Positions 1,061 to 26,949 of a stretch of DNA of 64,000 bases are shown here, piece after piece; position 1 is the stretch's first letter, and each line of letters opens with the position of its first letter. The notes below the pieces were generated by a model that had not been told where the DNA came from, did not search any database, and worked only from the letters and a program-made list of their open reading frames with translations. A program made the position numbers and the translations under genes. Location: contig NC_132892.1 of NCBI RefSeq assembly GCF_030463535.1, positions 34,350,109 to 34,414,108 on the forward strand, given 5' to 3'. Origin of the DNA: Salminus brasiliensis. Its lineage: Eukaryota; Chordata; Actinopteri; Characiformes; Bryconidae.

Positions 1061-1061
1061 A

Positions 1062-1166: not shown

Positions 1167-1216
<50 letters not shown>
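1062..1216. repeat. (CT)n and (GT)n microsatellites
   Basis: A CT run lies at 1062-1088 and a GT run at about 1157-1215, separated by about 70 bp of ordinary sequence. The ORF across them is composed of repeat-encoded residues and is not a gene. Confidence 0.9.
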
Positions 1217-1439
1217 ATTGACCCTCACTCTCAGACCCACTTAAAGTGTAAGGGTGCGATAGTTAAAACGTCTCCGTCTGTCTTTGTTATTTCCATGGCG
1301 ACAGACTCGACACTACTACCTAAGTGCTTCATCTGGCTGAAGGTTCGGGTTCATGACCTCCTTATATAACCAAACGCCCAGATTCTAAAATTTCATAAAC
1401 AGCTGAAAATGGTTTTATGAATGGACGCTGTTCCCCTCA

Positions 1440-3290: not shown

Positions 3291-3294
3291 CCAT

Positions 3295-3545
3295 TTATCA
3301 AATCAAATTTATCTGTATAGATTTTTACAACTGTTGTTGTCCCTAAGCAGCTTTATATAATCAGTAATTAATAAAAGATGGGAATCAACAACATAAAAGG
3401 ACATGAAAATCTAAGACCCCAGTGAGCAGCCAAAGACCACAGTGGTAAGGAGAAACTCCCTCAGAGCTGGAGGAAGAAACCTTGGGAGGAACCAAGACTC
3501 ACAAGGGAGACCCGACCCGTCCTCCTCTGATCAGAACTATTTATA
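3295..3545 (+). repeat. Dispersed teleost repeat (SINE-like)
   Basis: It contains the words 'caaatttatctgtatag', 'aaggagaaactccctcagag' and 'aagaaaccttgggaggaacc', and a related copy lies in reverse at 46290-46540. Two copies in one window plus the familiar wording support an interspersed repeat. The class is not certain. Confidence 0.7.
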
Positions 3546-6070
3546 AATTATTGATAAAAGTCACCAAACCATGTGAACTGTTGAACTGCTCTGGTGTGCA
3601 ACATATTCATATTCATCATATAATAATCCTGGTGTAGTATAACTTAATATAGTCATGGCAGGGATGCTCAGAGTAATGAGAGGAATGATGGGTAATAGTG
3701 GTGATATTAATAGTGGCAGATAGTTAAGAGTCCATGTAGGTTTAAACATGGTAATTAGGCAGGTAGCAGTGGTAGGAGGGTGTGCAGCTGGTCCGGCATG
3801 GGTGGTGGAGGAGCCTGGTGGCCTGACTGGTAGGTGGTAGCTGGTCTGATGCAGGTAGAGGTCCCCCCCAGCGGTCAGTCTTCTAACAGGTCGGGCTGGA
3901 TGAGTGGGCGATCATTTACTCGGAGAAGATAAAGAGACAGAGTTCAATCTGACATTGGCATTTAGACATTGTTTTTTTTTTTTTTTTTTTTTGCCCCATC
4001 TTGATTTTCCACTTCAATCAAGCTTACACACTTACAGACGTCTTTAGCATCTCAAGCTTAAAGTCCAACTGGGACGACACTTTTTATCTGACCCAATGGA
4101 AAAAAAACTGAAAGGACTTTCATTCTGTCCTCAATGAAGACGAATGTTGATGGCTTTGCCTTAGGGGAAACCCTTCTGAGCAGATTCCTTCCACAAAACA
4201 GTGCATGACACTGAACTTTGGAGGAAGTTCCCAAGCCCTGACCCTGTGTAAGATTTTACAGTGTCCTGACCCCTTTTCATTCAGCTTGGAGAACCATTGG
4301 AGCCAATCTGAGATGACTGCCGTGGATTATAGAGACTTACTGTGGGACAAGACGATTCCTATCAAACAATAAATGGGTGAAGGATTGTCCCAGACCTCCT
4401 TCAATTCAAGCCCTTATCAACCCCTTGGCCCTGATAAAGGTCAGGGTCGACATGAAGGTTTGGAGTCATTTACAATGGGTTTCTCCTAACCCTTCAAAAA
4501 TAAAGTAGAGGGGTGTCCACAAACTATTGAAAAAAAAAATACAAAACATAAATTTAGTAAATAAATGAAAAATAAAGTTTGCTGGAGGATTCAATAGAAT
4601 GTGTCATTTGAACAAGGGTGCCAAAACTTTTGCATAATGTTGTAGCTGTAATAATCGCGGTGATATTGTCTGGTAGTGCTTGTTATATATATAATATATA
4701 ATATATTATATATATATAATAGAAAATTTTATTTTTCGAGCAATTCCTACAAGACTAATTCCTCAAGCAAGCTGTTGTCTTTGGCTTACTGGTCAACTAT
4801 AATAAACTAAACATGGTTTTTAGATTCAAAAAAATCTAAAAAAAAATAAATAAATAAATAAAAAGTAAATTTTTGTGGTCTAAACATCCATTAGACCCTA
4901 AGAGCTTTTGAGGTTTTGAATCATTCTGAGAGCTTTCAAGAGAACGGCTCCCCAAATGGAGGGAAAATGCATTGCTATTGAATTTTACATTCAGTGAAGA
5001 GCTTCTGCACAGCTTCAGGTTTTTTTTATGGCAGTTTATCGATAAAGCCTTCAGGGCGTGTGCTTTCAACCTATTTGTCTCGAGCAATATCAGATCATTC
5101 TGGAACCTGGTCTTGGCTTGTGTAACACTCACAAAACCACAGAGCTGTGGACTGGAACAGATATAATTCAGCATTAAAAGCAGAGAAGAAGCTCCCAGCT
5201 CTCAAACTCACCCGAACTGAAGACCTTATAAAGTGTTTATGAGGATGAAGATGAGTCACAGTAAGGCATCACCTTGGACAGAAGCTATTTTTATTAGACG
5301 TACAGTAATAAAATCTCTCCACTTAAACTAACTGTGCAGAACGAAGCCGTGGGAGTTTATTTGAGATCCAGTTTGGAGACCACGTCACCACCATCTGGTA
5401 GCAAACTGGAATGCAACAGAGTTCATAAATCAGCCGTTTTAATCCAAGACGATTTCTGAGCTCCATCAACGTTACAGCATAAAGCGCTGATTCATCCAAA
5501 ACTGGTTGTGAAGACAATCAAACACTTTTGCTTTCCTGCAAGGTTCTTGGCTCGGATGTAGAACCTTTACATCATTTGAAGGTTCTTTATACTCCAAAAA
5601 CGTTCTCCACTCCCATTTTCAACACAAAAAAAATAGCTTTGAGGTTGTTTGAGTGGTTCTCAAACCTGTCCTCAGGGCTTCAGAGGTCCACAGCCTCATT
5701 TTGATTCTGAACCCAACCTAAGCCTGATAAAAGCTGAAAAAAGACCAGAAGGTTGTGGGGTCTGCAATTTAACCACTACTGCCCCTAGTTGGGATGTTTT
5801 GCTATCAATGCTGGGCTGAAACTGCTGAAACGGACACCCACCATCACCCAAAAAACTAAATAAAGCCTGTTCTTTGTAATCACTACTGGTGGTTTCCTCA
5901 ATAACACCAATAATAATTGCCAACACGTCAACATTGGCTGTTCCAATATGTATGAATGTTAATCACTGTTTTAATGGAATTTCTATTAATTGTCTTAAAA
6001 ATATCCTCACAATTCAGGGTTAGAGATTCAGAATGGGGGAAACTTAGCCACTCTGATTTCTTTACAGTGG
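3546..6070. other. Intergenic, no gene seen
   Basis: It includes a T-run at 3971-3992, an AT-rich tract at 4684-4722 and an A-rich tract near 4840-4866. Predicted reading frames are short and without recognisable domains. If the perlecan-like gene on the minus strand continues to the left, its next exons would have to lie here or beyond the window, but none could be recognised. Confidence 0.5.
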
Positions 6071-6075
6071 TGGTG

Positions 6076-6217
6076 AATGGAATCAGGTGCCGGTCGCCGT
6101 GACTACAACACAGATATACTCCATATTTCATTTCCTATCTAAACCCAGCAGTGAAACTCATGTGTCTTCTCAGTTTTGATGTTGGTAAAATAGTGGAGAA
6201 TCCTAATAAAATTAAAA

Positions 6218-6248
<31 letters not shown>

Positions 6249-6377
6249 AAATTGTGTATTTAAGTAACATCTCAAATGAAAATGTAATATATATATATAT
6301 ATTACATTTTCATTTGAGATGTTACTTAAATACACAATATTTATTTATTTATTTAAGTAACATCTCAAATGAAAATG

Positions 6378-6443
<66 letters not shown>

Positions 6444-6518
6444 TACATTTTCATTTGAGATGTTACTTAAATACACAATATTTATTTATTTATTTAAGTA
6501 ACATCTCAAATGAAAATG

Positions 6519-6588
<70 letters not shown>

Positions 6589-6788
6589 TACATTTTCATT
6601 TGAGATGTTACTTAAATACACAATTTTTATTTATTTATTTATTTATTTTAATTTTATTAGGATTCTCCACTATTTTACCAACATCAAAACTGAGAAGACA
6701 CATGAGTTTCACTGCTGGGTTTAGATAGGAAATTAAATATGGAGTATATCTGTGTTGTAGTCACGGCGACCGGCGCCTGATTCCATTT
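6076..6788. repeat. Large nested palindrome with (TA)n loops
   Basis: The outer arms are about 6076-6250 and about 6625-6788 and read as inverted copies with few differences (for example 'aggtgccggtcgccgtgac' against 'aggcgccggtcgccgtgac' after reversal). Inside, a block holding 'catttgagatgttacttaa' alternates in orientation six times, separated by TA runs or by 'tatttatttatttattt' spacers. A seventh, diverged copy lies at 7590-7630 next to a MITE. It is probably made of nested inverted copies of one small element. Confidence 0.9.
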
Positions 6789-7560
6789 TTTTTGAGAGGT
6801 GATTAACTTTTGCTCACATCTGAACCATTTAATTATGAAGAAGTATTGAGAAATCAGTGAACCTGAAAGAATAAAGTTAGGAGAAAAGTGGTAGGTGGGC
6901 TTTGAGAACCCCTACATGACTCCAAATCCATCCATTCTGTCAGGTTCAGACAACTCTTCAAAACTCTACTGAGGGCAGAGAAGAACTCCAAATTGGTTCT
7001 TCTATGGCATCCTTCCAAAGAACCCTTCGGTGTGTAGGCCGAGGTTTATGTTAACTTTATGTTCTATGTCTGAAACAAGAAGTGAACACATGAACAAGTC
7101 GTCTAGACTCTGAATGACGACAAACGAGCGAGTTTTCTCTGAGAAAGACCCATGCTGAAAGGTAAACACTGGAGGCTGGTAAGTAGGTGTATACGAAATT
7201 TATTAGGTGTTTATTGAACACGAAAGCAGAGCGTAAGGCAAGGAAGTGCTGGAAGGTTCTGCCACTCGGGCTGTTTAAGAAGTTCAACAGTAACTCAGGT
7301 CAGAAACAAACAGAGCGAAGAGATCAGAGATGATGGTCTTCCTGTTTTGGCTTCTGGTGAAGGTTAGCTATGTTAGTTTGGATACAAGAAATGAGGCTTG
7401 GTTTATGCTTTCAACTATAAATGCTGGTAAGGCATTCCCGTAGATAAGATCGAGGGATGATGTCAGGGGGATTCGGCGTGTGGTGTACAGGGGAGACATC
7501 TGGTCCTTACATGTTGTCTACCTTAGGAGGTGAATCAGGGCTGAGTCATTATGCTTTGGG

Positions 7561-7592
<32 letters not shown>

Positions 7593-7621
7593 TTACGTTT
7601 CCATTTGAGATGTTACTTAAA
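6789..7621. other. Intergenic, with a GA microsatellite
   Basis: No gene is visible. A GA run lies at 7560-7592, directly followed by a single copy of the unit that builds the palindrome at 6076-6788. Confidence 0.5.
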
Positions 7622-8184
7622 CACACAATATCGACAAAAGTATTGGGACACCTGCTCATGCGTTCATTGTTTCTTCTGAAATCAAGTGTATTAAAAAGAG
7701 TTGATCCTGCTTTTGTTGGGATAACTGTCTAATGTATCTACTGTCCAGAGAAGAAGGCTTGAAGGAGCATTGCTGTGAGGGTTTGATTGCATTTGTGTGT
7801 GAGGTCAGGAGGTTAGATGATCACCCCCCCACACACACACACACAACCTCATTCCCAACTCCCCAACTGATCTCAAAAGTACTGGATGGAGCTCCACCAC
7901 CATCATTCCAGAGAACACAGTTCCTCCACTGCTCCACAGCTCCTCAATGCTGGGGGGCTTTATAACACCCTCAGTCCACGCCTGGCATTATTAGGCAGCA
8001 TGGAGCCAATAGGGGCATGATGTTGATCTGCTCCAGAGAGTCCTATTCTATTGGCAGTACTTCTCTACATGGACTATACAAGCCGTGGGCACTTGCAGAT
8101 CTGTGGCAGCAATGGGTGAAGCTTACAGTAGCAGAGTGCATTCATTAAAAGGGGTGTCCACAAACATTTGGACATATAGTGGAC
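7622..8184 (-). mobile_element. MITE-type inverted-repeat element, copy 1
   Basis: It starts with 'gacaaaagtattgggacacc' and ends with 'ggggtgtccacaaacatttgg', which are imperfect inverted repeats of each other. The inside matches five other copies in the window (about 1595-1880, 8566-9108, 21959-22225, 28630-29005 and 29395-29840). It has no transposase. The ends resemble Tc1/mariner-type termini, so a non-autonomous member is likely, but this is an inference. Confidence 0.8.
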
Positions 8185-8565
8185 CTATCAGCTGTAAAAT
8201 TGTTCAGTGTTGTTCAGTACATGTAAAAGCTTTATGGAGTTTTAGCATGAAATGATTAGCATTATTAGCATCTCTATAATTAGCACTGCTAATTCTTAAT
8301 TGCTTAGCTTTCTTTAATGTCTGGCACAACACAATGGAAAAGCTCAACACTGCCATCTACTGTACGGTTCTGTAGATTGTGAAGATGGTTCCAAAAGGGC
8401 TGGGAAAATCAGAGCATCTATAATGTCGCTCTAAAAAAGGTTTTTTATGCTAATACATTTTACGCATCGTAAATGAATAATTCCAGCATAGTAAAGCTCT
8501 TTATATCAACATTAGATTACAGATAATATGGTTTGAAAACCTTTTTATAAAATTGTACAAGCCTT

Positions 8566-9108
8566 ACACTACATGTCCAAATGTTTGTGGACACCCCTTC
8601 TAATGAATGCATTCAGCTACTTTAAACCCTTGGGATTGCACCCTAGGGATTAGCAGAACAAGGCCTTTGAAGCTGTAGCACATGTGAAGCCAAAATGGTT
8701 TGATGCTTCAAAGCTTAAAGTCCCTGTAGAAAAGTACTGCCAATAGAATAGGACTCTCTGGAGCAGATCAACATCATGACCCTATTGGCTCCATGCTGCC
8801 TAATAATGCCAGGCGTGGGCTAGAGGGGTATAAAGCCCCCCAGCATTGAGGAGCTGTGGAGCAGTGGAGGAACTGTGTTCTCTCTCTAACACTTTTGGGT
8901 TGAGTTGGGAAGTCCTAAACACCCACTAATGCTCTTGTTGTTAAGTGCAATCTAATCCTCACAGCAATGCTCCTCCAAAATCTAGTAGAAAGTCTTCTTC
9001 TCTGGACAGTAGAGACAGTTACTCCAACAAAAGCAGGATCAATTCTTTTTAATATTCTTGGTTTGGGTGGGCTGGGGTGGGCAGGTGTCCCAATACTTAT
9101 ACTCCACA
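8566..9108 (+). mobile_element. MITE-type inverted-repeat element, copy 2
   Basis: The left end is 'acactacatgtccaaatgt' and the right end 'gtgtcccaatacttatact'. It lies opposite in orientation to copy 1 with about 380 bp between them. Its right end lies just downstream of exon 8 of the perlecan-like gene, and reading through that exon's donor reaches a stop at the edge of this element (9097). Confidence 0.8.
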
Positions 9109-9152
9109 CTGTGTGTAAATATGATTGAAGTGGTTCCAAACATGCAGCTCAC

Positions 9153-10883
9153 CTCTCACAGTGATTGTGGCGAAGGTCTCGCCGGAGCCCACATGGTTGG
9201 TGGCCACACATTTGTAGTTTCCGCTGTCGGACACTTTCAGCTGGGTTATAGTCAGCTTGCCGTCCTTGGTCGTCTTGGCTCCTGAGGAGAGCGCGGCCCC
9301 GCCCACACGGGACCAGCGGAAGGTGATTGGATGAGAGCCGTGGGCAATGCACTGTAGGCGCAAAGTGTCACCCCGACGGGCAACGACCTGGTCTGGGACT
9401 GAGGTGGCGTAGGGAGGAGCTGGAGAACAGAACCAAGACAAGATGAATAAATAAATATGAGCTCTAATAAGACACACCCACTTCAGCTAAACAAAGGCTT
9501 CTAAACGAGCTGATTGGGTCAGAACATCTTCAAAACATCAGGCTCCACCCGTGTGGTGCTCTTTAAATGATGGATTAGTCCGTCCTCTGTAGCTGAATAT
9601 CCCCAATGCCCTGGATCAGAAATACTGTTTACATGGTTTCTATCATGGGTTGAACTTTAGCCACCCTGCCTTTGAGCTCACAGTGAGGCGTTTACCCACA
9701 CTTCCCCTGTGGTCAATAAATCCAAAGTCCAGCAGAAAGTGCAGAGCTGGCTGAGATAACCCAGCCGACCTGATAACCCAGACTGAACCGTACAGAGCAG
9801 GGTACAGGTGATGTGATTCAGTTCAGTCTCTTTTATTCAGATTGGTCCCTTTGATTCAGGTTAGTTCTTTAATTCAATTCAGTTCTTCTAATTCAGTTCA
9901 GTCTCAATAATCCATTTCAGTCTCCTCAATTCAGATTTAGATTTTTGAATTCGTATTAGTGTCTTTAATTCAGTTCAGTTTTAATAACCAATTTCAGTCT
10001 CCTCAATTCAGTTCAGTCTCTTTACTTTAGTTCAGTCTTTTTAATTCAGTTCAGTCTCTTTAATTCAGGTTAGTCTTTATAATTCAGTTCAGTCTCAATA
10101 ATCAGTTTCAGTGTTCTCAGTTCAGATTTAGATTTTTGAATTCAGATTTTTTTTTAATTCAGTCTTTTTGATTCAGTTCAGTCTTTATAATTCAGTTCAG
10201 TTCATTTAATTCAGTTCAGTCCTTTTAATTCAGTTCAGTCTCTTTAGTTCAGTTCAGTTCTTTTTTAATTCAGTTCAGTCTTTTTGATTCAGTTCAGTTT
10301 GTTTAATTCAGTTCAGTTCTTCTAATTCAGTTCAGTCTCCTCAATTCAGTTAAGATTTTTTAATTCTGATTAGTCTTTTTAATTCTGTCTTTTTGATTCA
10401 GTTAAGTCTTTTAGAATTCAGTTCAGTTCATTTAATTCAGTTCAGTCTTTTTGATTCAGTTCTGTCTCTATAATTCAGATTGGTCCTTTTAATTCAGTTC
10501 AGTCTTTATAATTCAGTTCAGTTCATTTAATTTAGTTCAGTCTTTTTGATTCAGTTCTGTCTCTATAATTCAGATTGGTCCTTTTAATCCAGTTCAGTCT
10601 TTTTAAATCAGTACTGTATAATTCGTTTTAGTCTCCCCAATTCAGATTGGTCTTTTTGATTTAGGTTATTCTCTTTAATTCAGTTCAGTCTCTATAATCT
10701 AACGGTTCTTCAGTTATTATTATTATTATTATTATTAATATTATTATTATTATTAGGAATCAGCTTTCCGGCTATACAATCCATGTGTGTTTTATACATG
10801 TCTCTCACTTACTGTCCACCTCCAGCTGCACGTAAGCTTCACTGTAGCCGACAGCATTGGTAGCATTGCAGATGTACTGTCCT

Positions 10884-10931
<48 letters not shown>

Positions 10932-13900
10932 AGACACATAGAGGGAGACTCACACAAAGACAATGAAATGTGGTAATAATAAAACTATAAAAAAATCCTA
11001 ATATGACCTAACACACACCCAGACACACACACACACACACACAGACACACACACACACAGAGACACACAGTTGTACCTGAGTCTTGACGTCCCACGTTGG
11101 TGAGGGTTAGTGTTCCCCCTGCCACCTTGTGTTGCCATGGCAGTGGAGCGCGCAGCTTCGACCAGCTAATTTCAGGAGTGGGGTGACCTGAACATTCAGA
11201 CAACAAATTTATCAAACTGAGCAGAATAATCTGAATTACACTGATTTAACTCATCAACAGTGTGGACAGAGTGGACCACATGGACAGTGTGGACAGAGTG
11301 GACAGTGTGGACCATATGGATGGTGTGGACAGTGCGGACCGCATGGATATGAATACCTGAATATCTGAATACTGAATACTGAATACCTGAATACTGAAAA
11401 CTATATACTGAATACCTAAATACTGAATACCTGAATACTGAATACCTGAATACTGAATATCTGAACACTGAATACCTGAATACCTGAATACTAAATACCT
11501 GAATATCTGAATACCTGAATACTGAATACCTGAATACTGAATATCTGAATACTGAATACTGAAAACTGAAAACTGAATACCTGAATACTGAATATCTGAA
11601 TATCTGAACACTGAGTACCTGAATACCTGAACACTAAATACCTAAATACCTGAATACTGAATACTGAATACATGAATACTGAATACTGAATACTGAATAC
11701 CTGAATACCTGAACACTGAGAACTATATACTGAATACCCAAATACTGAATACCCAAATACTGAATACCTGAACATCTGAACACCTGAATACCTGAATAGC
11801 TGAATACTGAATACCTGAATATCTGAATACTGAATACCTGAATATCTGAAAACTGAAAACTGAATACTGAATACCTGAATATCTGAATACTGAATACTGA
11901 ATACCTGAATACCTGAACACTGAGAACTATATACTGAATACCTAAATACTGAATACCTGAATACCTGAATACTGAATACCCGAATACTGAACACCTGAAT
12001 ACCTGAATACCTGAATACCTGAACACTGAATACCTGAACACTGAATACCTGAACACTGAACACTGAATACCTGAATATCTGAATACTGAATACCTGAATA
12101 TCTGAATACTGAAAACTGAATACCTGAATACCTGAATACTGAATACCTGAATACCTGAATATCTGAATACGGAATACCTGAATACCTGAATACTAAATAC
12201 CTGAATACTGAAAACTGAATACTGAATACCTGAATACTGAATGCCTGAATACTGAAAACTGAATATGTGTATATAGAAAACTAAATACTGAATACCTGAA
12301 TACCTGAATACTGAGTACTGAATTCTTAAAATTTAATGTGTGTATATAGAAAACTGAATACTAAATATAAATATAAAAAAATCTGAATATCTGAATATCT
12401 GAATATCTGAATACCTGAATACTAAATACTTGATCTAGTAGTTGCAGATTACAGTCTCTAAGTGGGAGGCTGGGGTTTCTGATAAAGTGGACAGGGGAAC
12501 AGAGTGAATGTCTTCAGCACGGTGAGGTTTGTGTTACCGGTCGCTTGGCAGTGCATGGTCACTGCCTGACCCTCCACAGCCGTCAAGTCTGTCTGAGAGA
12601 CTGATGCTTTGGGCTCCATGGCAACTGAGGCTCCTCCCGCCATCCTTAGTTCCACCTTCTCTTCAGTTGACCCCTCCTTGTTCTGAGCACGGCACACGAA
12701 CGTCCCAGCATCCTCAGCAGTCGTGACTATTACCTATAGAGAATTATAATAGTAATAAATAATAATAATACATTTGAATAATATATCACCATCTCATACA
12801 AAAAAACTCCACTTTAAACTTTCCTCTATAATGTGAATATAATGTAATTATATGTCATGTCTGTATACCTGTAGCGCCACCTTGGCATCCGTTGTTGTGT
12901 AGGCCAAGACAGTCTCATGTCCTGCTACCTGTTTTAGCCAGGTGATTGAGGGGCGTGGCTTACCAGAGACATGGCATTCCAGACTTAGAGCTCCACCTAC
13001 TCTCACTGTAACAGGTCCAGAAGGCGTCACCCGCACTTTTGGAGCCTCTGACAAGTACACACACATAAATACACACAGACATGTATTCATACTGTATGAT
13101 CAGACATACACACATTCTGTATGATCAGACATATACACATACTGTATGATCAGACATATATACATTCTGTATGATTAGACATATAGACATTCTGTATGAT
13201 TAGACATATACACAAACTGTATGATTAGACACATACACATTCTCTATGATCAGATGCATACACATTCTGTATGATTAGACATATACACATTCTCTATGAT
13301 CAGATGCATACACATTCTGTATGATTAGACATATACACATTCTCTATGATCAGATGCATACACATTCTGTATGATTAGACATATACACATTCTCTATGAT
13401 CAGATGCATACACATTCTGTATGATTAGACATATACACATTCTGTATGATTAGACATATACACATTCTGTATGATCAGACATATACACATACTGTATGAT
13501 CAGACATATATACATTCTGTATGATTAGACACATACACATTCTGTATTATCTGTATAATTAGACACATACACATTCTGTATGATTAGACATCTCTCTATT
13601 TGTGTCTCTATTTTTGTTGTTTTTCACTTTTCTCCATAATGTGAACCTGTTGTTCTTTCCACTGTATCAGAATTTATAATGAATGGACCAATAGATATGC
13701 TCCAAAATTACCTGGAATAAAATCTTGCCCATTGACTTCCACTGAAAGTTAAGGTTTTTATCTTCTCCATACCGCTGACAACATGCACATACAGTAATGA
13801 TATACAGTCAGTGTTAGAGGTGGTGACTTTACAGGACTATTGGCCAGATGTTCTAATCACAGACCTTAATAAACAGTAAGGTCATCATTACCGAATACAC

Positions 13901-16900
13901 AGGTTCCTAGCTGTCTATTGTTTTACTCGATCTAACAAAAACACCTCAGCTTAGGAGCCTTCTGTAAATCAGTTGATTGGATGGAAAAGCTGGAAAAGAT
14001 TAGTGGATTTGGCACTAATGATCAAATTAATCAGCAAACACCTATCATTTCACTGTTAATGTAAAAATATGAAGTCACATTATGTAAAAAAAGTGAAAAA
14101 CAGAAAAATGGAGATACAAGGTTTTGTGTAACAGTGATGATATGCATTAATAAATGGTTTTAATTCAATGACAAATCATTTACTCAGTAATTTATGAATT
14201 ATATTGAATTATTCAATATGCAGTCATTAATAATAGTTATCAAATATTCTAAATATTATTTTTTTAGCTAATACATAATACAATATTATATATCCAACAA
14301 CTACCTATCCTTAAATTTAAAACTGTAATTTATTATTTTATTATTCTATACTTTATTCTTGATTCCATTACTATTGCCAATAGTGTACATCATCAGTGAA
14401 GTCATTTCTACTCATGCATGATGATAAACACACATACACAGACATGGACACACATACACTGGACTCACGTTTAACAGTCAGCACTGCAGTGATGGTTGTT
14501 TTGCCCTGTGCATTGGTTGCTATGCAGCGGTACTGCCCCTGGTTGCTTTGGCGGGCGAGAGCAATCGTCAGGACTGAACCATCAGGACCAACCTTAACGT
14601 TATCTAAAGAGTACAAAGTCATACCGGTAAATAAAACCTACAGCAGAATATTCCTGTCAAACCAGTTAATAAAATAAACTTACATCAGATAATTAAACTA
14701 GTTAACCAAGGTAACTCATTCTAACCCTACTAAAATTGATGTGATTAAAAACTTTAAATTAAATAGATATCTAACACTTACATATCACACTCTTGTTCAC
14801 AACACTTTGGATTTTCTACTGTTGTTTCTGTAGAATTCAGTCATTTTTTGTCCAAATTTATAAGAAAAAAACATATTTTCAGACATTGAAAAGTAGAGTT
14901 ATTGGTTTATCCAGATCAGAATAGCAAGGCTCTTTCATTTACTGCTGTATAAACTTAATATAAACATTTTTTGAGGAGATCCATGACATTTCTAGAACTT
15001 TTGTTATAAAATAGTTCTTAAAATCAGAAGCAACAGTATTATATTGTAACAATAACAGTACAATAACAATCTGTTGACTACATTACAATATTTAACTACC
15101 ACATATTAAAATTTGTATACTTGAGTTTGGATTTCTTCCTGTAAGCTAAGTATTCTAGCATGAATTACTATCATTAAAACAGTAAAATTAATTTAAAACA
15201 CCATTTTGTTAAGTTCTTATTTCTTTACTTTCTTCATTAAAATACAGCTTCGTACACTTGCAAACATTCTGCAAAAATGTCTTCTTAGCAACTAAAACAA
15301 AAATATTTGTGATATCAAATATGTCTTAATATTTAGTTAATTAAATTAATGTTTGATGTTATGTATTTTAAGAGGACTTAAAATTGGGATAAAATGAAAA
15401 TTGTTTGAATAATTTTATAAAATTCTTACAGCAATCTCACAAGGATGAACATTAGATATCACCTACATTCAAGCTGTTTTCATGTGTTGAGACCTAGGTG
15501 CAGCGTTCAGTGTGGTTACAATTGCACATGTGAGTGATTCTGAATCTAAGACCCCCTGCAGTACACACTAAAGCATTTAACACACCTGATACCACTCATC
15601 AGCTCATTATCAACCAACAAGAACTGAACTAGGTGGTGTACATTCAGGAAAGTCAAATGTGCAGTGCAGGAGTTCCTCAGGGGCTAGTATTGTTTCTTGT
15701 TTACATACTGCAACAGATAATATCTCCACAAATGAAAGGCAGTTATTGACAATTACATTTCTACATAAATAATACAATAACTAAAAACCATCCACTAACT
15801 ACTACTAAACTATTACTATGTTTTGAGAGTGGGATCTGAAGTGTGGACCCACATATTGACACTTAGGAATAGAGATTGAAACTCTGAATAGAGATTCTCT
15901 ACTGAAAAGAAAATGTAGTCCAGGACCAGCATTCCATTTCAGTTCACCAGGGTTTGTTTCTAAGAGCTGTGATTGACAAATAATTCTAGAGGAAACTGCA
16001 AAGAGTTGGGAATTGGGTTAAGAGTTCTGTTTGGGAAAAAACACTACTATCCTGGCTTCACCTCTGGGTCCACTGATGTTTTTTACAAAGAAAAAAAAAT
16101 CTTGGCTTAGACGTACAGTCTAAGGGGAAATCTTTAATTTGTACTTTTAAATTAAGAGGTTTAAAGCATTTCTTGTTTACATACTGCAACAGATGATATC
16201 TCCACAAATAAAATGCAGTTATTGACAATTGCATTTCTACATAACTAATTCAATAACTAAAAAACATCCACTAACTACTACTGAACTATTACTATGTTTT
16301 GAGAGTGGGATCTGAAGTGTGGACCCACATATTGACACGTAGGGCTAATTTGCTAGATCAGGCCTAGTTCTGAATAGAGATTCTCTATAGAAAAGAAAAT
16401 GTAGTCCAGGACCAGGAGTCAACCCTGTCCAGGAAACTGACCCATATGATTCAAGGTATTGGATATACATATTTTCCCAGTTTTCTCTCTAATTTAGTTT
16501 CCACTAACCCATTAACTATAGTTACTTAGTCCTATAAGACTCCACCAAATTCCAACCAACCTAGTCAGAGCAAAGCCAGTTGTGCAACATAACTGTGGCA
16601 TCACTGGGGATCAAACCAGCAACCTCCTGATTTCAGGGCCAAGCAAAATATTTTGTTGCAGTGTTTTCGAACCCACCTCCTAGTGGCTGGTTGTTGATCC
16701 TTTTCCACTCCAGCTGGACTGGCTGGGACCCACTGACCACACGGCACCGAAAACTGACCGAATCATCTTGATTAATGGCTGCACTGCGAGGTTCAATGGA
16801 CAGCACTGGTTTCTGGGCCAATGCTGAAACACACAAACACAAAACACAAGAACCCGTCTAATATGATTATTGTCAGGTTTGTAAAGAGATTTTTATCTAA

Positions 16901-18072
16901 TCAATTTCTTGCATATATGAAAAGAATGTTTCTTGTGTCCACAGAATAATTACACAATTCCCCTGCTTGTTTCTAAGAGCTGTGATTGAGAAATAATTCT
17001 AGAGGAAACTGCAAAGAGTTAGGAATTGGGTTGAGAGTTCTGTTTGGGAATAAACATCACATCCTGGGTTCACCTCTGGATCCACAGATGTTTGAAAAAA
17101 ATAAACTCTTGGCTTAGACATACAGTCAGAGGGGAAATCTTTAATTTGTACTTTTAAATTAAGAGGTTTTTCAAATGTTTAAATGTTAAAAGGTTCTTCA
17201 CCTACTCACTTTTTTTAAAATCTGGCTCTGAAGCCGTTCCTCAGGGCCACCTAGAAGGCCTACATTTTTTGCTTTAAACTAATGTTCAGTGCAGATAGAG
17301 CAAAATGTGGTTCCTTTCAACCGGTTTGATAATGTTTTTACAGAACACCCCACTAAAAAGTTCTTTATTGCACTAATTCTCCAATCAGTCCTCAGGACAT
17401 CTCCAGATGATCTTTATCTTTGCTTCATTCTAACTTTCAACACCTTTCAAAAGGATGTGCAAATGGTTTTCTAAGAATGTCATAAAAGAACCACTTTTGG
17501 GTTCACCTAAAGACTTCATAGAACCATAGACAAGGTCCCTTATACAACCTTTGCATATAATTGGGGTTCTTTAAACTTGAAAATGTTCTTCACACTCACA
17601 TATCTTATATCTTTATAGAAAAAAAAATACTGTACCAAGATTTAGCAAACTTCTAGCAAAACAATGACTGTAAGGTTCTAAAGACCTGTTGGATAATTCC
17701 TTGTTAAAAGAACTCTATAATGAAAAGTACTTTATTACAGTTATTATAATGTAATAAAGTATTTATTACTTTATCACAGTCGCCCCCCCCCAAAACCTTC
17801 ACTCAACAAATTTGCTCTATTCCAACTTCTAAAATGTACAGTCTTCACAAGTAAGAAAATACGCTGGCTATTTTTGAGTTGGTCGTTGAAGAACCACTTA
17901 AAAAAAAGGTTTAATGAATGTTGTATACCAATTTAAGGGTTGTTTATAGAACAATTACATAATGTGGAGGTTTTTGTTATGTCTCCTTTACAAATAAAGA
18001 CAGTCCACTAAAAGGACTAAAGGTTAGTGCTGCCGTTGCCAAGTGTTTTATCTCTGGTATCTTTGTAATAAG

Positions 18073-18114
<42 letters not shown>

Positions 18115-20802
18115 CTGGACTGTTTATAGATATTTCTCAGGTTTCACTGTGCCGTATATCATCAGTTAATTATGAAGGCCTCTGTGAGCTGAAACAGGTG
18201 TGTTAGATGAAAAGCACTGGGACATGGATCCCCCACTGACTTCACAGAGAATAAAGAAGAGCCTCAGGCCTTACTCTCCCACCACAACTCCAGATTTCAC
18301 TAATTACGTTCCCTTCCTCATTGCGGAGGAAAAGTCATTAGTGAAATCAGGTTCGGAGTAAATACCTGCAGACACAGCAGTGTTCAGCAGGTTTTCATTT
18401 GAGTGCTGCTGCACTAGAGCTGAAGCGAATACAGTGATGATTAAATGCCCTAAAGGCAATCTGACATGTTGAGGTGATTACACAAGACGTACAGTTAGCT
18501 CATTCCTCACTGTAGTGCTTACAGATGCACCCTGTTTATCATTTTAAACTATAGCAGACCTCCTTCTAGCACTGCTAACAGAGACCCTATCTGCCTTTTC
18601 ATATTTCGTGAATAGACTCAAACAAAGTCAAAGGACATCCTTAAAAAAAGAGTTTTTAGTAAATATTCTTTAGTAAATAGAAATATATGTTGGAGTACTT
18701 GCATGATTCATTCATGTGATGGATGATGTCTTTTATAAATGACTCTTTATATACTTTATAGAGCACCAAAATAATATTGTCTCGTCTATAGGTGAAATAA
18801 CTATTTGCTGTACTATAGAACATTTTGTAAAAATAAAGGTCAATGGGGTTCTTTGGAGCACCAGTTTTGCTTCCCAAAATAACTTTTTATTGAGTTTTGT
18901 AGTCTTGTAACTTAATAATACAAAAAAATCTCAATTTTACAGGAGAAGGAAAAAACCTTATGAACTTTCAATAGAATAAAATATTGAATTTTTGGAGCAT
19001 TTCTATTGGCCCATTCATTATGAAATTTGGATATAATGTAAAGAACACTGAAACACAAAAAAATGGAGATACCTGTTTTTTTGTGCAGCAAAATAGTTTG
19101 TGTCATTTTACATAAATGACACATGTAATTACATAATTACATAATTACGTAATTAACTTTATGATGTAATAAAACAATTTAGTTATGCAGAACATTCAAG
19201 CATCTCAGGGTACAAATATTGATCTAGAATCAGTGCTCATTGGCCATCTAACTGAATTTACAGTTGTGCAAAAGACATGAACTGAAACCAGATTAGCATT
19301 CTTACTCTGAAAAGCCTGATAAGTATGGGCTATTGTCTGTAAATGAGGGGTGAGTGTTAAGACCCATTTCACAGTGTAAAGAACGCCCACATGTGGTAAA
19401 GGGTTTTTCTTTCTAGGAGCCATATATTTCAGTCAAGAAACCAAACCTCTACTTTTAAGAGTGAATGGTTAAAAATGGAGACCACACACTTGGTATTTGA
19501 CTGCTTTCAGATGAACCAGGTGAACCAGACGGCCTAATTCTGGTCTTGAACAGAGGTCAGTGCCTTCTGTGTTAAACACAGAGTTCAGTCAGCAAACATT
19601 CAGTCACATATTACTGTTTTTCAGGTTTTTGACTGTTTCAGACTCTTGATGGGTTTGCAAAGCTAGTCTACGTAACAGTGACCAAACACAAATGAGTTTA
19701 GCTTACTGTTTTTACATTTGATAAAACTGAACGTCTGGATTTCATGTCATTTGTGTTTCAGCTCTTTTCACAGTCTGAACAATCACACCCAAGCAGAAGC
19801 TGGAGGAGATCCATCATGGACCTGGATCACGTTCAGCCCACTTCATTCCAAGCTGTTACTTCATTTAGGAGCTTAAATGTTCTTCCCAAGGTATCTTAAG
19901 AAATGTGAGGTCTTCAGCTGTCAGAGTTTATATAAATAAAATAAAACCATGCTTTATTTTAAAAACAAACAAAAAAGACTCTAAACTTTAAACAATACAG
20001 AACATTATCTTTTGCCACAATGTTGAAACTGTGGTGGTGGGGGGGACCTTGCACCCTTGGTTTACCCCTGGGATAACAGATGGATTTCTTTCTGTGGAGA
20101 CCCTTAACTGTTCTTTGCTTGGGCATACAATTGGTGGAAAATGTTTATGTGTTTCTCTAAACATTAAAAATGTTCTTCATACTCAAACATCTCATTCACC
20201 TCTGTTCTGAAACCAGATCTACAGCCCACATTTCAGCCCCAGCCATACTTATAAAGTTAGAGCTAAAATGTGGCTTTTATATGTTATTTATTTATGTATT
20301 AATATATATTTATTTTAATTTTTTAGTTTTTTTATGGCAATTGCTCAGCAGATGGTCCCAATCTTTGCTCTATCCAAACTTCCAACACATTCACTCACAT
20401 TAAAAAGTGCTACATTGTAGCCTTGGGTTTGAGTTCTAACTACAGACTGTTCATGGTAGACCATTCTTCACACCAAAGATTTTTATATTTTACAATAGAT
20501 TTATGATTAATCAAACATATTTTCATCTTATACATAAAACAAACAAGAAATACATTTAATTTCTTTAATTTTTGCTTATTTTCTAAACAATCATGCTCAA
20601 ATATTCACTTAAACACTTCTGTAAAGATTACCGAAGCATAATTACCAGTTTAATCTAACAGAAATGTATTCAAAACAATATGAAATCAACATTCTCAGAT
20701 TAGAATGAGTAAAAATGATGTGTTTATTATAAAATGAGTGGAGTTTATTTTACCTGTGAGCAAAAGACTGGACAGAATCACTGCAGCTCTGATGAAATCC
20801 AT
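9153..20802 (-). CDS. Perlecan-like secreted protein with four Ig domains (3' end not found)
   Basis: Exons in transcript order are 20802-20754, 16823-16677, 14603-14469, 13047-12869, 12733-12538, 11187-11077, 10881-10813 and 9419-9153 (49, 147, 135, 179, 196, 111, 69 and 267 nt). All have AG/GT borders and matching phases, giving at least 384 residues. Exon 1 encodes MDFIRAAVILSSLLLT. With exon 2 it gives a hydrophobic leader ending in A-L-A, a good signal-peptidase site. Ig domains lie at about residues 22-109, 111-203, 205-294 and 296-384, with paired Cys and Y-x-C motifs. Domain 3 has WSKLRAPLPWQH and DSGQYICNAT, and domain 4 starts PPYAT; these are diagnostic of the late Ig repeats of HSPG2, in the same order. 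No LG or EGF domain is visible. The gene may run off to the left, or stop at 9097 by reading through the last donor. Ig repeats of this kind bind matrix proteins; the role here is unknown. Confidence 0.85.
9829..10697. repeat. Degenerate ~20-bp tandem repeat in intron 7
   Basis: About forty imperfect copies of a unit close to 'tttttaattcagttcagtc' fill nearly 870 bp of the intron between exons 7 and 8 of the perlecan-like gene. Copies differ by small substitutions and length changes, so the array is old. Confidence 0.9.
10720..11065. repeat. ATT, GA and CA microsatellites around exon 7
   Basis: An ATT run at about 10722-10755, a GA run at 10887-10928 and CA runs at 11016-11060 surround exon 7 (10813-10881). 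The GA run begins only about five bases upstream of the exon 7 acceptor in transcript direction. It is read as CT there and may serve as the polypyrimidine tract. Confidence 0.85.
11262..12437. repeat. ~1.1-kb 'ctgaatac' minisatellite in intron 5
   Basis: A short array of 'gtggacagtgtggacagagtg' type units (11262-11340) is followed by a long array of 8-13 bp units of 'ctgaatac'/'ctgaatact' (about 11345-12437). The array lies between exons 5 and 6, which encode the two halves of the third Ig domain. The long ORFs with MFRYSVF words here come only from this repeat. Confidence 0.95.
13062..13592. repeat. ~26-bp minisatellite next to exon 4
   Basis: About twenty copies of 'cacattctgtatgattaga' plus 'catata' start within 20 bp of the exon 4 acceptor (13047) on its intron side. 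A higher-order two-unit repeat is visible at 13240-13440, where 'ctctatgatcagatgcatac' and 'ctgtatgattagacatatac' alternate. Confidence 0.95.
15690..17168. repeat. Rearranged duplication around exon 2
   Basis: Block X (about 15690-15925) recurs at about 16170-16410, and block Y (about 15952-16162) recurs at about 16968-17168. In the first copy X and Y are only about 30 bp apart. In the second, about 550 bp containing exon 2 (16677-16823) lies between them. The rest of intron 2 up to exon 3 is AT-rich without other features. Confidence 0.85.
16555..16650 (-). repeat. Possible tRNA-derived SINE remnant beside exon 2
   Basis: The minus strand carries a box-B-like stretch ('ggtttgatcccc' region, about 16603-16620) within text typical of short dispersed repeats. 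It ends about 30 bp from the exon 2 donor. No full box A is convincing, so this is a weak call. Confidence 0.3.
17169..20753. other. Intron 1 of the perlecan-like gene, mostly unique
   Basis: A 3.9-kb intron (16824-20753) separates the signal-peptide exon from the first Ig exon. It holds a TA microsatellite at about 18074-18110 and an A/T-rich middle, but no other exon could be recognised. The short ORFs on both strands have no recognisable domain. Confidence 0.55.
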
Positions 20803-20902
20803 GATGAAAAGACTGATTCCCTCTCTCTGTCTTTCTGTCAATGTATCACTCTTTTCACCCTCAGCCCCCTCCCTTCAACATTTCATCACACTCCCACCCC
20901 CT

Positions 20903-20942
<40 letters not shown>

Positions 20943-20988
20943 TACTCCAGCATCATTTTGAAATATGTAAAATCTCAAAATAGAAGAA

Positions 20989-21060
<72 letters not shown>
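20803..21060. repeat. CA and TA microsatellites upstream of the perlecan-like gene
   Basis: A CA run (about 20906-20941) and a TA run (about 20995-21057) lie 100-255 bp upstream of the start codon at 20802, where a promoter or 5' UTR should be. No convincing TATA box was separable from the TA run. Confidence 0.85.
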
Positions 21061-21061
<1 letters not shown>

Positions 21062-21236
21062 ACTGAAGAAAGTAGTGAGATCTTGTTGGTTCTCCAGGAG
21101 GATGTGTTCAACTCCATCATCATCATCAGTAGCAGCAGCAGCAGCTCAACTAATTTGTCATCATTAAGACTTTATATTAAAAGTTTTTAGTTGTGTATTT
21201 TATCTAATATGGACATTCAGAGCAGCCCTTTTTTAG

Positions 21237-21267
<31 letters not shown>

Positions 21268-21572
21268 TTGTGTGTGTGTTGGTTTCAGGACATGGTTTGC
21301 CTCAGATTTACTGTAATGTGTTTTAATGAGAGCCTGATGATGAGTCCTGTGATCTGCTCTGAAGCGTCCGGCAGCGGTTTGAGCCTAATCTGATTTCATG
21401 TTTAATCAACACACACTTTCACCATCCACAAACACAGGAACAGTCTGTGGTCTGGGAACGGGTGGGGGATGGGGTGGAGGGCAGTGGGTGGGTGGGTGAG
21501 TACGTGCCTGTGCTCAGGTTGTGTGGTTGGATAATTGAAGGGAATTCAAGATCATACTAAGAATAATGAATA
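21061..21572. other. Intergenic, no gene seen
   Basis: It contains a short AGC run near 21133-21146 and a GT run at 21238-21280. Otherwise it has no recognisable feature. Confidence 0.5.
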
Positions 21573-21662
21573 GTAGACTTACTGTTTATCTCCCTCTCTT
21601 TCTCGCTCGCTCGCTCTCTGAGAAAGAGAGGGAGATAAACAGTATGTCTACTGTTCATTATG
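21573..21662. repeat. Strong hairpin around a (GCTC)n loop
   Basis: The arm at about 21573-21608 ('agacttactgtttatctccc' and so on) is nearly the exact reverse complement of about 21619-21656, with a loop of 'gctcgctcgctctct' type. The stem is about 36-38 bp with about one mismatch or bulge. Confidence 0.9.
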
Positions 21663-21958
21663 AATCATAATGCATAGTTTTTGCAATATAAACATAAATA
21701 GATGCTTAAATGATGGGAAAAAAACGATCTCCAAGAATCGTAAAAAGTTCCAGATGAAACACTTCTGCAATATTTGGACAATATTTGGACTCCCTGCATG
21801 GTCACTACTTAGTAACCCTTGTGAAATCATTTTTTTGGAGCAGCCAAGAGACTTTCCATTGTTGTTTGAGGGATTTTCACTTACATACTTGCATACTAAA
21901 GGTTTGAGCTTTTTTACTAAGAAAATAGGCAGAACAATAAGCAAATTGACGTATATTG

Positions 21959-22225
21959 CATGTCCAAATGTTTATGGACACCCCTTCTAAATGCACTGTA
22001 GAGAAGAAGTACTGGCAATAGAATAGGACTCTCTGGAGCAGATAGTAAACATCATAACCCTATTGGCTCCATGCTGCCTAATAATGCCAGGCGTGGGCTA
22101 GTAGAGGGGTATAAAGAAGCCCCCCAGCATTGAGGAGCTGTGGAGCAGTGGAAGAAGAATTGTGTTCTTCGGAATGGTGGTGGTGGAGCTCCATCCAGCA
22201 CTTTTGATTGGCATGAGTTGGGGTG
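21959..22225 (+). mobile_element. MITE-type element, truncated copy 3
   Basis: It begins with 'catgtccaaatgtttatgga' and shares the internal words of the other copies ('ggctccatgctgcctaataa', 'gaggagctgtggagcagtgg'). The right end is missing. Confidence 0.75.
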
Positions 22226-22581
22226 TTCATGATGTCTGTGTGTATTGAGGTTTGTATATATTTTATTTGTTTACCTTGTTTGTCTGCAGATTATCAGGTT
22301 GTATGGTCATAGAGGAAGGCTGTTTCTCTCTGGCTTTTTGTTTATGTCTATGAATGAATATGAATATGTCTTTAAATATGTGAACTATATCTTTTTGTGT
22401 TACAGTTTTAATCATGGACTAAACTCTCAGACTAAAGTTTTATCATTATATTTATGTATTAATGCCTGTCTCTCATTTAGGGGAGGAAATAGGAAGAAAT
22501 TATAAGGATTTAAAATGTTATTCTTTTATTAATTGAATTTAATATTATATACATTTATATTAATTGTATATAATATTTATA

Positions 22582-22638
<57 letters not shown>

Positions 22639-23934
22639 AAAACCTGACATTCACAGCCAAACTCAAGCACAAGAAAATCCAACTATGATTGGTTTTCCTC
22701 CAGTTGGGTTTATCAATTCATCTGAGTCTGTAATTCCAATAGCTCGAATAGCATATGAGAAGCTGCAAGTTGGAGCTCATGGTACCCACTAGATGGCACT
22801 GTTTTGTGTGTAAAGTTAAAGTTAAAGATACACAAGTCTGAAATTGTACCGATGTTGAACAAGTAATGGTTAAGTAAATAAAAAAAAAGTAAATAAAATT
22901 TAAAGCTCAATGCTAAAGCTAGCCTCTCAAATACAATAGCCATATTATGCAAAGAAATTGGGACAGTTTTCCAACTATACAGTCAAAAGGGAAAGTCTGC
23001 ACACCCCTTCTCCACATTTTACATTACATTACAGACTTATTCTGCAATAGACAGAGTTCATTTTTGCCTCAAACATCTACATACATCTACAACTGCCAAT
23101 AATTACAAAGTGAAAACTGTTTTTTAGAAAATATATTAAAATAAAAAAATAACCCTTATTTAGGAATGTACACACCTTTAGCCAAATACTAGGCTTGGAT
23201 TGTACCTACAGCCCCTGGTCCTTGGAGCTGAACACACTTCCTGTTGCAACACCCTCCCACCGTGGTTCCATGCAAACTGATTCGAACCAATCTATCATAA
23301 ATAAGTGAATATTACATCCCACACACATTACATGTATTGTTATGATTGTGATACATGCCATTGCTGTTCAACCTAATGGGTAGACGTTTATCAAGAATGT
23401 ATGTATGTGAGGGTGGATATGGGGTTATGTCCCCACCAAATTCGTGACCAACAAAGAACATTTCAATATTAAGTGCATGTTGATAACTGCAGTGTGAAAA
23501 CAAGCTAATTGAAAAGATGAGGGTTACAAAGGACTCAAGCTGGAAAGTAAGAAAGGAAATGATAAGAACTGGTGTTTTTTATTAATTTATTTTGAAATAA
23601 AAGCTCATGTCTGCTGCTTACCTTGTCTTTGTTGCCTTTCTACCATGCTAGGACTTGCCCTGCCAGTGAATAAAACCCTGGTCTGCCATAAGGAAATCAG
23701 TGGTGTTACCCATTATGCTAACTAACCACTTACTCCCTAGCTTAACAACCATCACTTCAGGAGGACAGCAGATTCCTTGGCTAAACATTGTGCCTGTGTT
23801 TGGACAGTTAGTTTGGAAAACATGGTTGGGTCCTGTGGTCAGATTTAGTTGGCAGAACAAGGACGGTTTAATAGCCACGGTTCAAAACCGCAGAGAACAG
23901 GAAAGGACACATGGCAGTCATGGTGTGGTTGATT
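22226..23934. other. Intergenic, no gene seen
   Basis: A TA microsatellite lies at about 22579-22635. The ORFs in the stretch are short and unrelated to known domains as far as can be read. Confidence 0.5.
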
Positions 23935-24445
23935 CACATTATCCACATGTAGCTGACGCTCTTATCCAGAGCTCTTGTACGTGAATCTTGCCCAAGGTCT
24001 CTTACTGGTGTAGAGTGGTGAGCTTGCCCAGCCTGGCAATCAAACCCTAGTCTACCACATAGAAAGCAGTCAGAGTTACACCAAGTGCCCCCCTCCCCCC
24101 CTCATTTAACCTTCTTTACTTCAGGATGGACAAAAAGTCCTTCCATGTGTGTTTGTACTGTTCATACACAGAATTGAGGACATGGTTAGATGTTGTGGTC
24201 CTGTGGTTAGATTTATTTTAAAGAATAAGGAAGTTCAAAACCACAGAGAACATGAAAGGTCACAATGTCACATGGGTATCAGCATATGGTAATTCACATT
24301 TATGGCATTTAGCTGATGCTCTTATCCAGAGATCTTACATGTGAATCATGTTACACAGGTAGGAGAGTGTAGAGTGAGGAGTGAGGGGTGAATTTTGGTG
24401 GCCCAGTCAGAGAATTGAACCCTAGTCTGTCACAGAGATGGTGGA
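23935..24445 (+). repeat. Two copies of a common teleost dispersed repeat
   Basis: Both about 23935-24090 and about 24288-24445 begin with text close to 'catttagctgatgctcttat' and 'ccagag', then run through 'gtgaatc' to an end rich in C or 'caaaccctagtct'. Shorter relatives lie at 26505-26560, 30495-30550, 40858-40915 (reverse), 42185-42235 (reverse) and about 56600-56640. Confidence 0.8.
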
Positions 24446-24779
24446 GTTCTACACCATATGACCGGTTGATGGTGGGTGTTTGACTGCTTAACCATGTATG
24501 ACATGATCCCAGTCAAACATTCAGGTTTTATTTGGCCTGAGAGAAACCTTTAAACATTGACTTACCAATAAAGGTGCTAGATATGTGAAGAACCTTTGAA
24601 AGAATTAAGAACCTTCTTTTGATTTAAATACTTAATTCTTTATGGATGCAAAAGTGAACCATCTATGGCATTGTCCAATGAACCATCAGATTACCCAACG
24701 ATTGCAGAAAGATAGTTGTATTATAAACACTTGTGGAAAGTCTTCAGCAAAGTTTGGTAGTTGCCCTACTGGAACACAC
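24446..24779. other. Intergenic, no gene seen
   Basis: No coding, RNA or repeat signal was recognised. The right end leads into the minisatellite at 24780. Confidence 0.4.
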
Positions 24780-25095
24780 CGATGGTTCTTTGGGTAATCC
24801 GATGGTTCTTTGGGTAATCTGATGATTATTTGGGTAATCTGATGGTTCTTTGGGTAATCTGATGGTGCTTTGAGCAATCTAATTGGTTCTTTGGGTAATC
24901 TGGTGGTTCTTTGGGTAATCTGATGGTTCTTTGGGCAATCCGATTGGTTATTTGGGTAATCTAATGGTTCTTTGGGTAATCTGATGGTTATTTGGGTAAT
25001 ATGATGGTTCTTTGGGCAATCCGATTGGTTATTTGGGTAATATAATGGTTCTTTGGGTAATCTGTTGGTTCTTTGGACATTTTGATGGTTCTTTG
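24780..25095. repeat. ~21-bp minisatellite
   Basis: About fifteen copies of 'gatggttctttgggtaatct' with variants ('ggttatttgggtaat', 'ggttctttgggcaatc'). Short ORFs on both strands across it are repeat-encoded. Confidence 0.95.
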
Positions 25096-26949
25096 CTGGA
25101 GACTGGCCCTCCAGGGCTTGAGTTGTGCACTCCTGTGTTAAAGGATACAGAAGTGAGAAAGGAACGGTACACGTTTAAACACATCTTTTTAATTAATTAA
25201 AAATAATGATTAATCATTTAATTGGTGCTAGAATGAATTAGTTAGTAAAGCGGAAAAGAAAAAGAAGGCAGAAAAGGAGGTGGGAGGTGAGTACAGAAAG
25301 AGAAAGTCACAAATAGGACAAAGGAGGAAGAGAAAACAGGATGAGAAAGAGTGAAAGCCTGTAAAAAAGAAAGATTTTTTAACAAGAAAATTAAAAATAA
25401 AAAAACAAGATTCTTTTTAATTTTCAGTCTCTCTCTCTCTCTAAGTTCTTCAGTTCTCTTCTCTAAATTTAGTCACCCTTGATTACATTACATATTGTTG
25501 ATCTTCTAAGAGCTTGTTTACATTTGCATGCATTTTTGGTGATTGGATCACACTTAGGCTTCCCTTCATCCCCCAGGACGCACTGCGATCAGATTACGAC
25601 AGGATCCCTCAAACCACATTCAGAGGTGGTTAAAGACCGATCTCGTCCACATTTAATGCAGGCATAAATTAAATGCATTTTCTGTGATCGGATTCCATAA
25701 GGCAAACGGGAAAATGTCGGTTGAAAACTAGTAAAAATACGACTAATAATTACTGTGGATCTTGGCGTCTCTCAGCAGAACAGTTTTGATGAGAAACTGA
25801 AATCATGAGAAATGATAAATGTGTTGGAGTGATTGCTTATGCAGAAAAGTAAAATTGGATCTCATGTAAACAGAAATTGGTCAGTATTAGATCCAGGTAA
25901 TATTCAGATACAAAACACATGTAAATGGCAGGTCTAAACATTTCCATCAGTCACATCTTCTACAAAGACACGCTCCTGCACATTCTAATCCACAACAACG
26001 TTATTTACCGAATTTAACAAAATAAATCTTGTCTAATTCCAGCACATTACTTATTTCGTTAAATAAATAAATAATATGTATTTTATAAATATTAATACTA
26101 TAAATTGTCCTATTTAATATTTATGTTTGCTAATATACAATGAGAACATCAACACTGTGTGTAATTTGACTGGGGGGCCTAAAGATTTGCAGAAAATTAT
26201 AAGAGCAACACTGTCCAGTAAGAGAATGATTACAGTGTTCCTGATACAGTCCTAAGCTAGGCAAGGCTAGGTTGTGTGGCACCTGTGAACCATCAGGGTG
26301 ATGTAAACCCGCTAATGACAGCAGCACTGAAGCTACGATAAAAAAGAAAGAATCAGTGTTTGCTTCATTCTGAGTTCAAATAACAGGGTGGTAAACAGGC
26401 TCGTAAAGCCGCATCTAAGCCTTTCCACAGCAATCAAACTCACACATTTCCAATTTATACACAAACCAACTCAAATACTGAGAAAAGCACTGATTAGCAT
26501 CTTACATTTACATTTACGACATTTAGCAGACACTCTTATCCAGAGCAACTTACAAAGTGCTTTGCTATTTACCCAAGAAAAACTTTAGCTAGTTAGAATA
26601 GACCAATAATTCAAAGGATACCTCTAAGCTTAGACATTACTAAACACAAGACAATAAGGTGACCATAGTACTCTAATCGTCCAAGTATTCTCGGAAGAGG
26701 TGGGTCTGCATCTTTGATGGATATGAGATGCCTAAGTGAGGAAGAGCAACAAGCCTCTAAGATGTCAAGCCATCAAGCCTTGCTGGCAAGGATGCTTAAG
26801 GAAGTGGCTGTTACTCTTGACTGCCCCCCTTTGGGACGACCGGGTCATGTTCTTTTGCGCATGAACGTCAGTTTAGGAGTTTAAACGTTTCATCTGAAGG
26901 TTAGGATTTGGGCTACTTTATCTGCTGAGTGAAAGTGACGGTGTAAGAA
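25096..26949. other. Intergenic, no gene seen
   Basis: It holds a purine-rich stretch (25250-25400), a CT run (25428-25441) and the dispersed repeat word at about 26505-26560. No exon of either neighbouring gene type was found. In particular, no perlecan-like Ig exon appears on the minus strand upstream of 20802. Confidence 0.5.

Follow-up and report, generated by a model that had tools for sequence, protein, structure and literature searches.

One of the questions raised by the DNA studied here is how a short run of perlecan-type immunoglobulin (Ig) domains comes to stand behind its own apparent signal-peptide exon, when perlecan is usually regarded as the product of one giant gene (hspg2; HSPG2 in human). 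The stretch that was analyzed, called the window below, is 64,000 nucleotides (nt) of Salminus brasiliensis (NCBI RefSeq assembly GCF_030463535.1, 1.07 Gb; contig NC_132892.1, here C15, positions 34350109-34414108), and the gene in question, the window gene, lies on its minus strand. By looking at its exons and at a second locus on another contig (C14) we suggest, from sequence comparison, that the window gene is probably an old partial paralogue of perlecan that has been kept under constraint.

The window gene was resolved into eight exons, running from 20802 to 9153 after correction of their boundaries, that splice to 384 open codons (Table 1). Each of the eight donors reads GT and each of the seven acceptors AG, and the exon phases chain as 0-1, 1-1, 1-1, 1-0, 0-1, 1-1, 1-1 and 1-1. 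The encoded product consists of a signal peptide and four I-set Ig domains. In Pfam, I-set is the best family (four stretches, E 5.6e-66) and V-set also matches (one stretch, E 1.7e-25) because related Ig models cross-match; only Ig-type families were matched within the 384 residues. Comparison of the product with the C-terminus of human perlecan by blastp gave 160 identical residues over 365 columns (44%, E 4e-102) in a strictly collinear alignment. Counted from the end of perlecan domain IV, the four domains correspond to its seventh- to fourth-last Ig repeats, with three more Ig repeats and then domain V following them. If human perlecan has 22 Ig modules, as given in PMC4398486, their numbers would be Ig16 to Ig19. 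We also searched the window with an Ig profile built from the four domains and seven human perlecan Ig repeats. No other perlecan-like Ig exon was found among its 2416 six-frame open reading frames (ORFs): seven scored at E <1e-7, all of them in the window gene, and the next best was a plus-strand V-set ORF (E 0.01). The original prediction, which had described eight exons with consistent phases, the Ig order of late HSPG2 domain IV and no perlecan exon upstream between 20802 and a receptor cluster, is upheld on these three points.

It had also been proposed that this is a partial duplicate of perlecan which stands apart from the true gene, and the true gene was found on C14. A search of the genome with the 384-residue product located the corresponding exons at C14:30.228-30.231 Mb (39-64% identity per exon), inside a second hspg2 that spans C14:30.20-30.27 Mb and that we call full-looking on the basis of its Laminin_B modules, longer Ig run and domain V. 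The human domain V query has 47 matches in the genome. Eleven of them fall at C14:30.2047-30.2231 Mb (53-65% identity), and the 204 kb around the window (one stretch of which is N) have none; matches elsewhere include three short ones at C15:30.14-30.41 Mb (34-52% identity). For Laminin_B, 5 of the 15 genome matches are at C14:30.253-30.274 Mb and none is on C15. On C14 the Ig run extends beyond the four repeats in both directions, towards earlier Ig repeats at one end and, at the other, through the final three repeats into the beginning of domain V. When the C14 Ig repeats just before the four were used as query, they returned their own exons on C14 and, in the window, Ig domain 4 only (38%), while the remaining C15 matches (29-38%) lie at 26.2 and 36.7 Mb. 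Apart from the four Ig repeats, the readable part of these 204 kb yielded no perlecan module. The genome holds one full-looking hspg2 (C14) and one four-Ig copy (C15). A misassembly, in which the true hspg2 would be split by the receptor cluster, had been named earlier as a possible objection and can be rejected, because C14 carries another hspg2 with divergent copies of those exons (184/362 residues identical).

Over the four repeats C14 has six exons and C15 seven. The comparable splice boundaries, a set which leaves out the start of the first Ig exon (its C14 position is not fixed), agree in position and phase except for one extra C15 intron. Such matching positions indicate a genomic copy and not a retrocopy. 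The extra intron is rich in TG and TC microsatellite and was either gained by C15 or lost from C14. Protein identity is 184/362 (51%) between C14 and C15, 184/362 between C14 and human and 158/361 between C15 and human. By the Nei-Gojobori method the two fish copies differ by 1.42 synonymous substitutions per site (dS, near saturation) and 0.44 nonsynonymous ones (dN), with a ratio of 0.31 averaged over both copies, and their differences at the three codon positions number 121, 116 and 208 across 362 codons. The Ig cysteines and tryptophans are retained in the window gene. Random mutation of the C14 coding sequence left a stop-free frame in 0 of 300 runs at 0.3 substitutions per site and in 11 of 300 at 0.1, whereas C15 has no stops; measured against this simulated decay, the intact C15 frame suggests selection through most of its history, and the copy probably has a function that is its own.

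Based on the same alignment, three-point branch lengths are 0.49 (human), 0.28 (C14) and 0.49 (C15), the human branch being longer than that of C14 in 99.8% of 1000 bootstraps. Residues common to C14 and C15 alone number 56, to human and C14 alone 56, and to human and C15 alone 30. These values, from three sequences whose tree is unrootable, fit a duplication in the ray-finned or fish lineage at about the age of the teleost genome duplication, with C15 evolving faster; a duplication before the fish–tetrapod split, combined with a fast human branch, is also possible. Synteny was tried as proof of a whole-genome duplication and dropped. Human WNT4, a neighbor of HSPG2, gave its top identities at C25:7.56 Mb and then C5:25.0 Mb, with none on C15 or near C14:30 Mb, so that C14 and C15 are not supported as duplicated chromosomes.

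Exon 1 encodes MDFIRAAVILSSLLLT and leads straight into Ig-coding exon 2, and the joined sequence gives the cleavage site ALA|Q; the phase and cleavage site thus fit the first Ig exon, as first described. The start codon has A at -3 and G at +4. With a loose leader-exon filter that fits the phase of exon 2, exon 1 is the sole match on the whole minus strand of the window, and 40 Markov copies of 16824-27237 gave a mean of 0.125 loose matches, of which none equalled exon 1 in combination with a strong Kozak context. The possibility that exon 1 was taken from another gene was looked into by a DNA-level genome search with 216 bp around it, a search that skips simple repeats and common words and that an old source would escape. 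The single match was its own locus, and no donor gene was found. Judged from these features, secretion of the product is likely. The predicted mature product so far has 365 residues, a mass of 38.8 kDa, an isoelectric point of 9.2, eight cysteines (two per Ig domain) and one N-glycosylation motif, and no LamG domain was found in it as far as it could be read. An RGD motif in Ig domain 4 (9367-9375, minus strand), which is absent from the aligned C14 hspg2 and from the aligned human perlecan, may be due to chance. Comparison of the product with the PDB returned generic Ig chains (titin, Robo, DSCAM and contactin) and was uninformative, and a prokaryote genome scan gave one Ig-like match on a bacterial contig (27% identity), which was dropped.

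Table 1. Exons of the window gene and the intron that distinguishes it from C14 hspg2 (window coordinates).
Feature	Position	Strand	Basis
Exon 1: signal peptide from the start codon on (16 codons + 1 nt); phase-1 donor	20754..20802	-	Leader-exon filter; 216-bp genome search
Exon 2: rest of the signal peptide (A-L-A|Q), then the first half of Ig domain 1	16677..16823	-	Perlecan alignment; 3' boundary equal to that of C14 hspg2
Exon 3: second half of Ig domain 1	14469..14603	-	Perlecan and C14 alignments
Exon 4: first half of Ig domain 2	12869..13047	-	Perlecan and C14 alignments
Exon 5: second half of Ig domain 2, then start of Ig domain 3	12538..12733	-	Perlecan and C14 alignments
Exon 6: middle of Ig domain 3 (WSKLRAPLPWQH)	11077..11187	-	Perlecan and C14 alignments
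195-bp intron within Ig domain 3, missing from C14 hspg2	10882..11076	-	C14 exon unsplit, 180 nt
Exon 7: end of Ig domain 3	10813..10881	-	Perlecan and C14 alignments
Exon 8: entire Ig domain 4; phase-1 donor, no stop	9153..9419	-	Perlecan alignment; donor score

Several points weigh against reading the window gene as a constrained, secreted paralogue, and they concern both of its ends, the searches and its rate of change. On the plus strand of the window the loose filter has nine leader matches, three of them as good as exon 1 by hydropathy and donor (by thresholds derived from the observed exon 1 itself) and none with the full Kozak context; hence the filter alone is not specific, and exon 1 is a call from sequence features. 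The genome searches score best candidates only. At the other end, exon 8 closes with a phase-1 donor that is the strongest of the eight (score 5.77), and it has no stop codon; the gene model is therefore incomplete, its terminal exon lying beyond 9153. In 1-9152 no perlecan exon was found, and no convincing terminal exon was found among eight candidates with an acceptor score of at least 5, a threshold that would exclude five of the gene's own seven acceptors, so that a real terminal exon could be missed. A search of 100 kb of left flank (one stretch is N and ~95 kb are readable) and 40 kb of right flank gave no perlecan match, the sole hit being a short EGF-like one at E 0.45. The description "stand-alone secreted gene" given in the original prediction is thus partly retained: secretion is likely and only these four perlecan Ig repeats were found in the readable part of the 204 kb, but the gene as modeled lacks its end.

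Exon 8 may continue into a transmembrane or other C-terminal module. A membrane receptor, in which exon 8 would be followed by a transmembrane and a cytoplasmic exon, would fit the site beside the V-set receptor cluster, the open phase-1 donor at 9153 and the presence of TRIM/PRY-SPRY, secretin-family seven-transmembrane (7TM), V-set receptor and NACHT genes within the 204 kb. Yet a single ORF turned up when 1-9152 was scanned for phase-1 exons carrying a hydrophobic segment; it can be reached from the acceptors 3895 and 3787 and is probably repeat-derived because its hydrophobic part sits in a stretch 74% identical to 46065-46525 of the window; the V-set receptor exons that were tested also lie on the opposite strand, and we consider a receptor unlikely. 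As for the rate of change, C15 is faster than C14 (longer branch in 99.9% of 1000 bootstraps), and since the ratio of 0.31 averages C14 and C15, C14 may contribute some of the constraint. If the locus were a decaying duplicate or pseudogene whose signal exon matches by chance, the longer C15 branch (0.49 against 0.28) and the minisatellites within three introns could be accounted for. Such decay is hard to reconcile with 384 of 384 codons open, canonical splice sites, the conserved Ig cysteines and tryptophans and a ratio of 0.31 at near-saturated dS, and we regard it as quite improbable. A larger truncated perlecan, with the signal peptide and four Ig repeats continuing into the remaining Ig repeats and domain V left of the window, agrees with the donor phase at 9153, which is the one that leads to the next Ig repeat in C14, but it is hardly credible given that no domain V or further perlecan Ig repeat was found in the 9.1 kb of window and ~95 kb of readable left flank and that none of the 47 domain V matches lies near the window.

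The partial paralogue that we favor may have arisen in one of two ways. Either a genomic stretch with the exons of the seventh- to fourth-last domain IV Ig repeats was moved to another contig, or a fuller duplicate lost its remainder; what the sequence shows is equal compared boundaries, a different contig and no other perlecan module found nearby. The C15 copy, which we infer to be transcribed, would start with a signal-peptide exon joined in phase to the first of the Ig exons, and its product would be a secreted, basic protein of small size with four Ig domains and, as far as read, no LamG. Most likely it would act as a matrix or soluble binding protein which keeps some of the contacts that this segment of domain IV makes with its ligands, although contacts with those partners may be kept or altered. 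Ligands of domain IV include nidogen, fibronectin, collagen IV and PDGF. With some contacts kept and perlecan's other modules missing, the product could bridge or compete for the same partners, and competition with perlecan, as proposed in the original prediction, would be plausible. A much more tentative proposal, doubtful as a whole, is that of a fish gene family in which a four-Ig perlecan fragment split from hspg2 around the teleost genome duplication, gained a new leader exon, was kept by selection, came to stand among innate-immunity genes and would act as a secreted decoy or adaptor, its targets being perlecan ligands or perlecan-binding cells or microbes.

The 204 kb neighborhood, judged from nine ORFs picked by eye, contains TRIM/PRY-SPRY, secretin-family 7TM, V-set receptor and NACHT genes and an AMP-binding enzyme. 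Co-option by the immune system is thinkable from such neighbors, and position alone is weak evidence. All four neighboring V-set ORFs that were tested match V-set best, two of them above the curated cut-off, unlike the window gene with its four best-matching I-set stretches. They belong to a tandem cluster of V-set receptor exons at 27332-62756 (plus strand), presumably of CD300/pIgR-like type, with leader-like ORFs such as MKILLIFTFHLISG. Elsewhere on this contig, C15:31.71-32.07 Mb (~354 kb) holds 31 of the 150 Ig_3 matches listed for the genome, a large tandem Ig family. Repeats are found around the exons as well. A direct repeat of ~209 bp (89% identical; 16967-17169 and 15954-16162, minus strand) flanks exon 2, perhaps a mobile element or the result of local duplication, and the large minisatellites in three introns lie at 9816-10698, 11350-12433 and 13076-13551. 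Related copies of an interspersed repeat lie at 1595-1903, 7621-8078, 8716-9116, 21996-22243, 28628-28920 and 29399-29831, the copy at 8716-9116 beginning 37 bp past the end of exon 8.

Among the papers listed by searches of an open-licence library, none describes such a fish gene in its title or the opening of its abstract, and databases may still hold it; automatic "perlecan-like" gene names occur in fish genomes and may already include the window gene. Shortened products of perlecan are already known, as is a split perlecan. If our reading is correct, an old and intact gene made of four domain IV repeats alone would mean that this part of perlecan can work by itself, and the window gene would offer a natural small construct for learning the ligands of these repeats, which is hard to do within the giant core protein. 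PMC2771047 mentions HSPG2 and perlecan in passing.

Compared with perlecan itself, the window gene has the same four consecutive domain IV Ig repeats in the same order, with equal compared exon boundaries and phases, but it differs in its own first exon, in the extra intron of the third Ig domain, in its location on another contig and in that no Laminin_B or LamG was found near it in the readable flank. The short perlecan forms of mammals (mast-cell isoforms and endorepellin) are isoforms or fragments of a single gene and contain domain V. They share with the window gene a shortened secreted product of perlecan sequence (its secretion being predicted), whereas the window gene is a separate gene and, as far as seen, is without domain V. 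The carp soluble immune-type receptor SITR is, by the title of its paper (PMC3031540), reportedly a soluble Ig-domain protein of fish, and the paper is said to name CD300 often; it belongs to an immune-receptor family, whereas the window gene encodes I-set domains of perlecan type. In Trichoplax adhaerens, according to PMC4398486, perlecan is split into two separately transcribed genes that jointly correspond to one perlecan. Perlecan modules are thus carried by separate genes in both animals, but in Salminus a full-looking perlecan exists besides the short gene.

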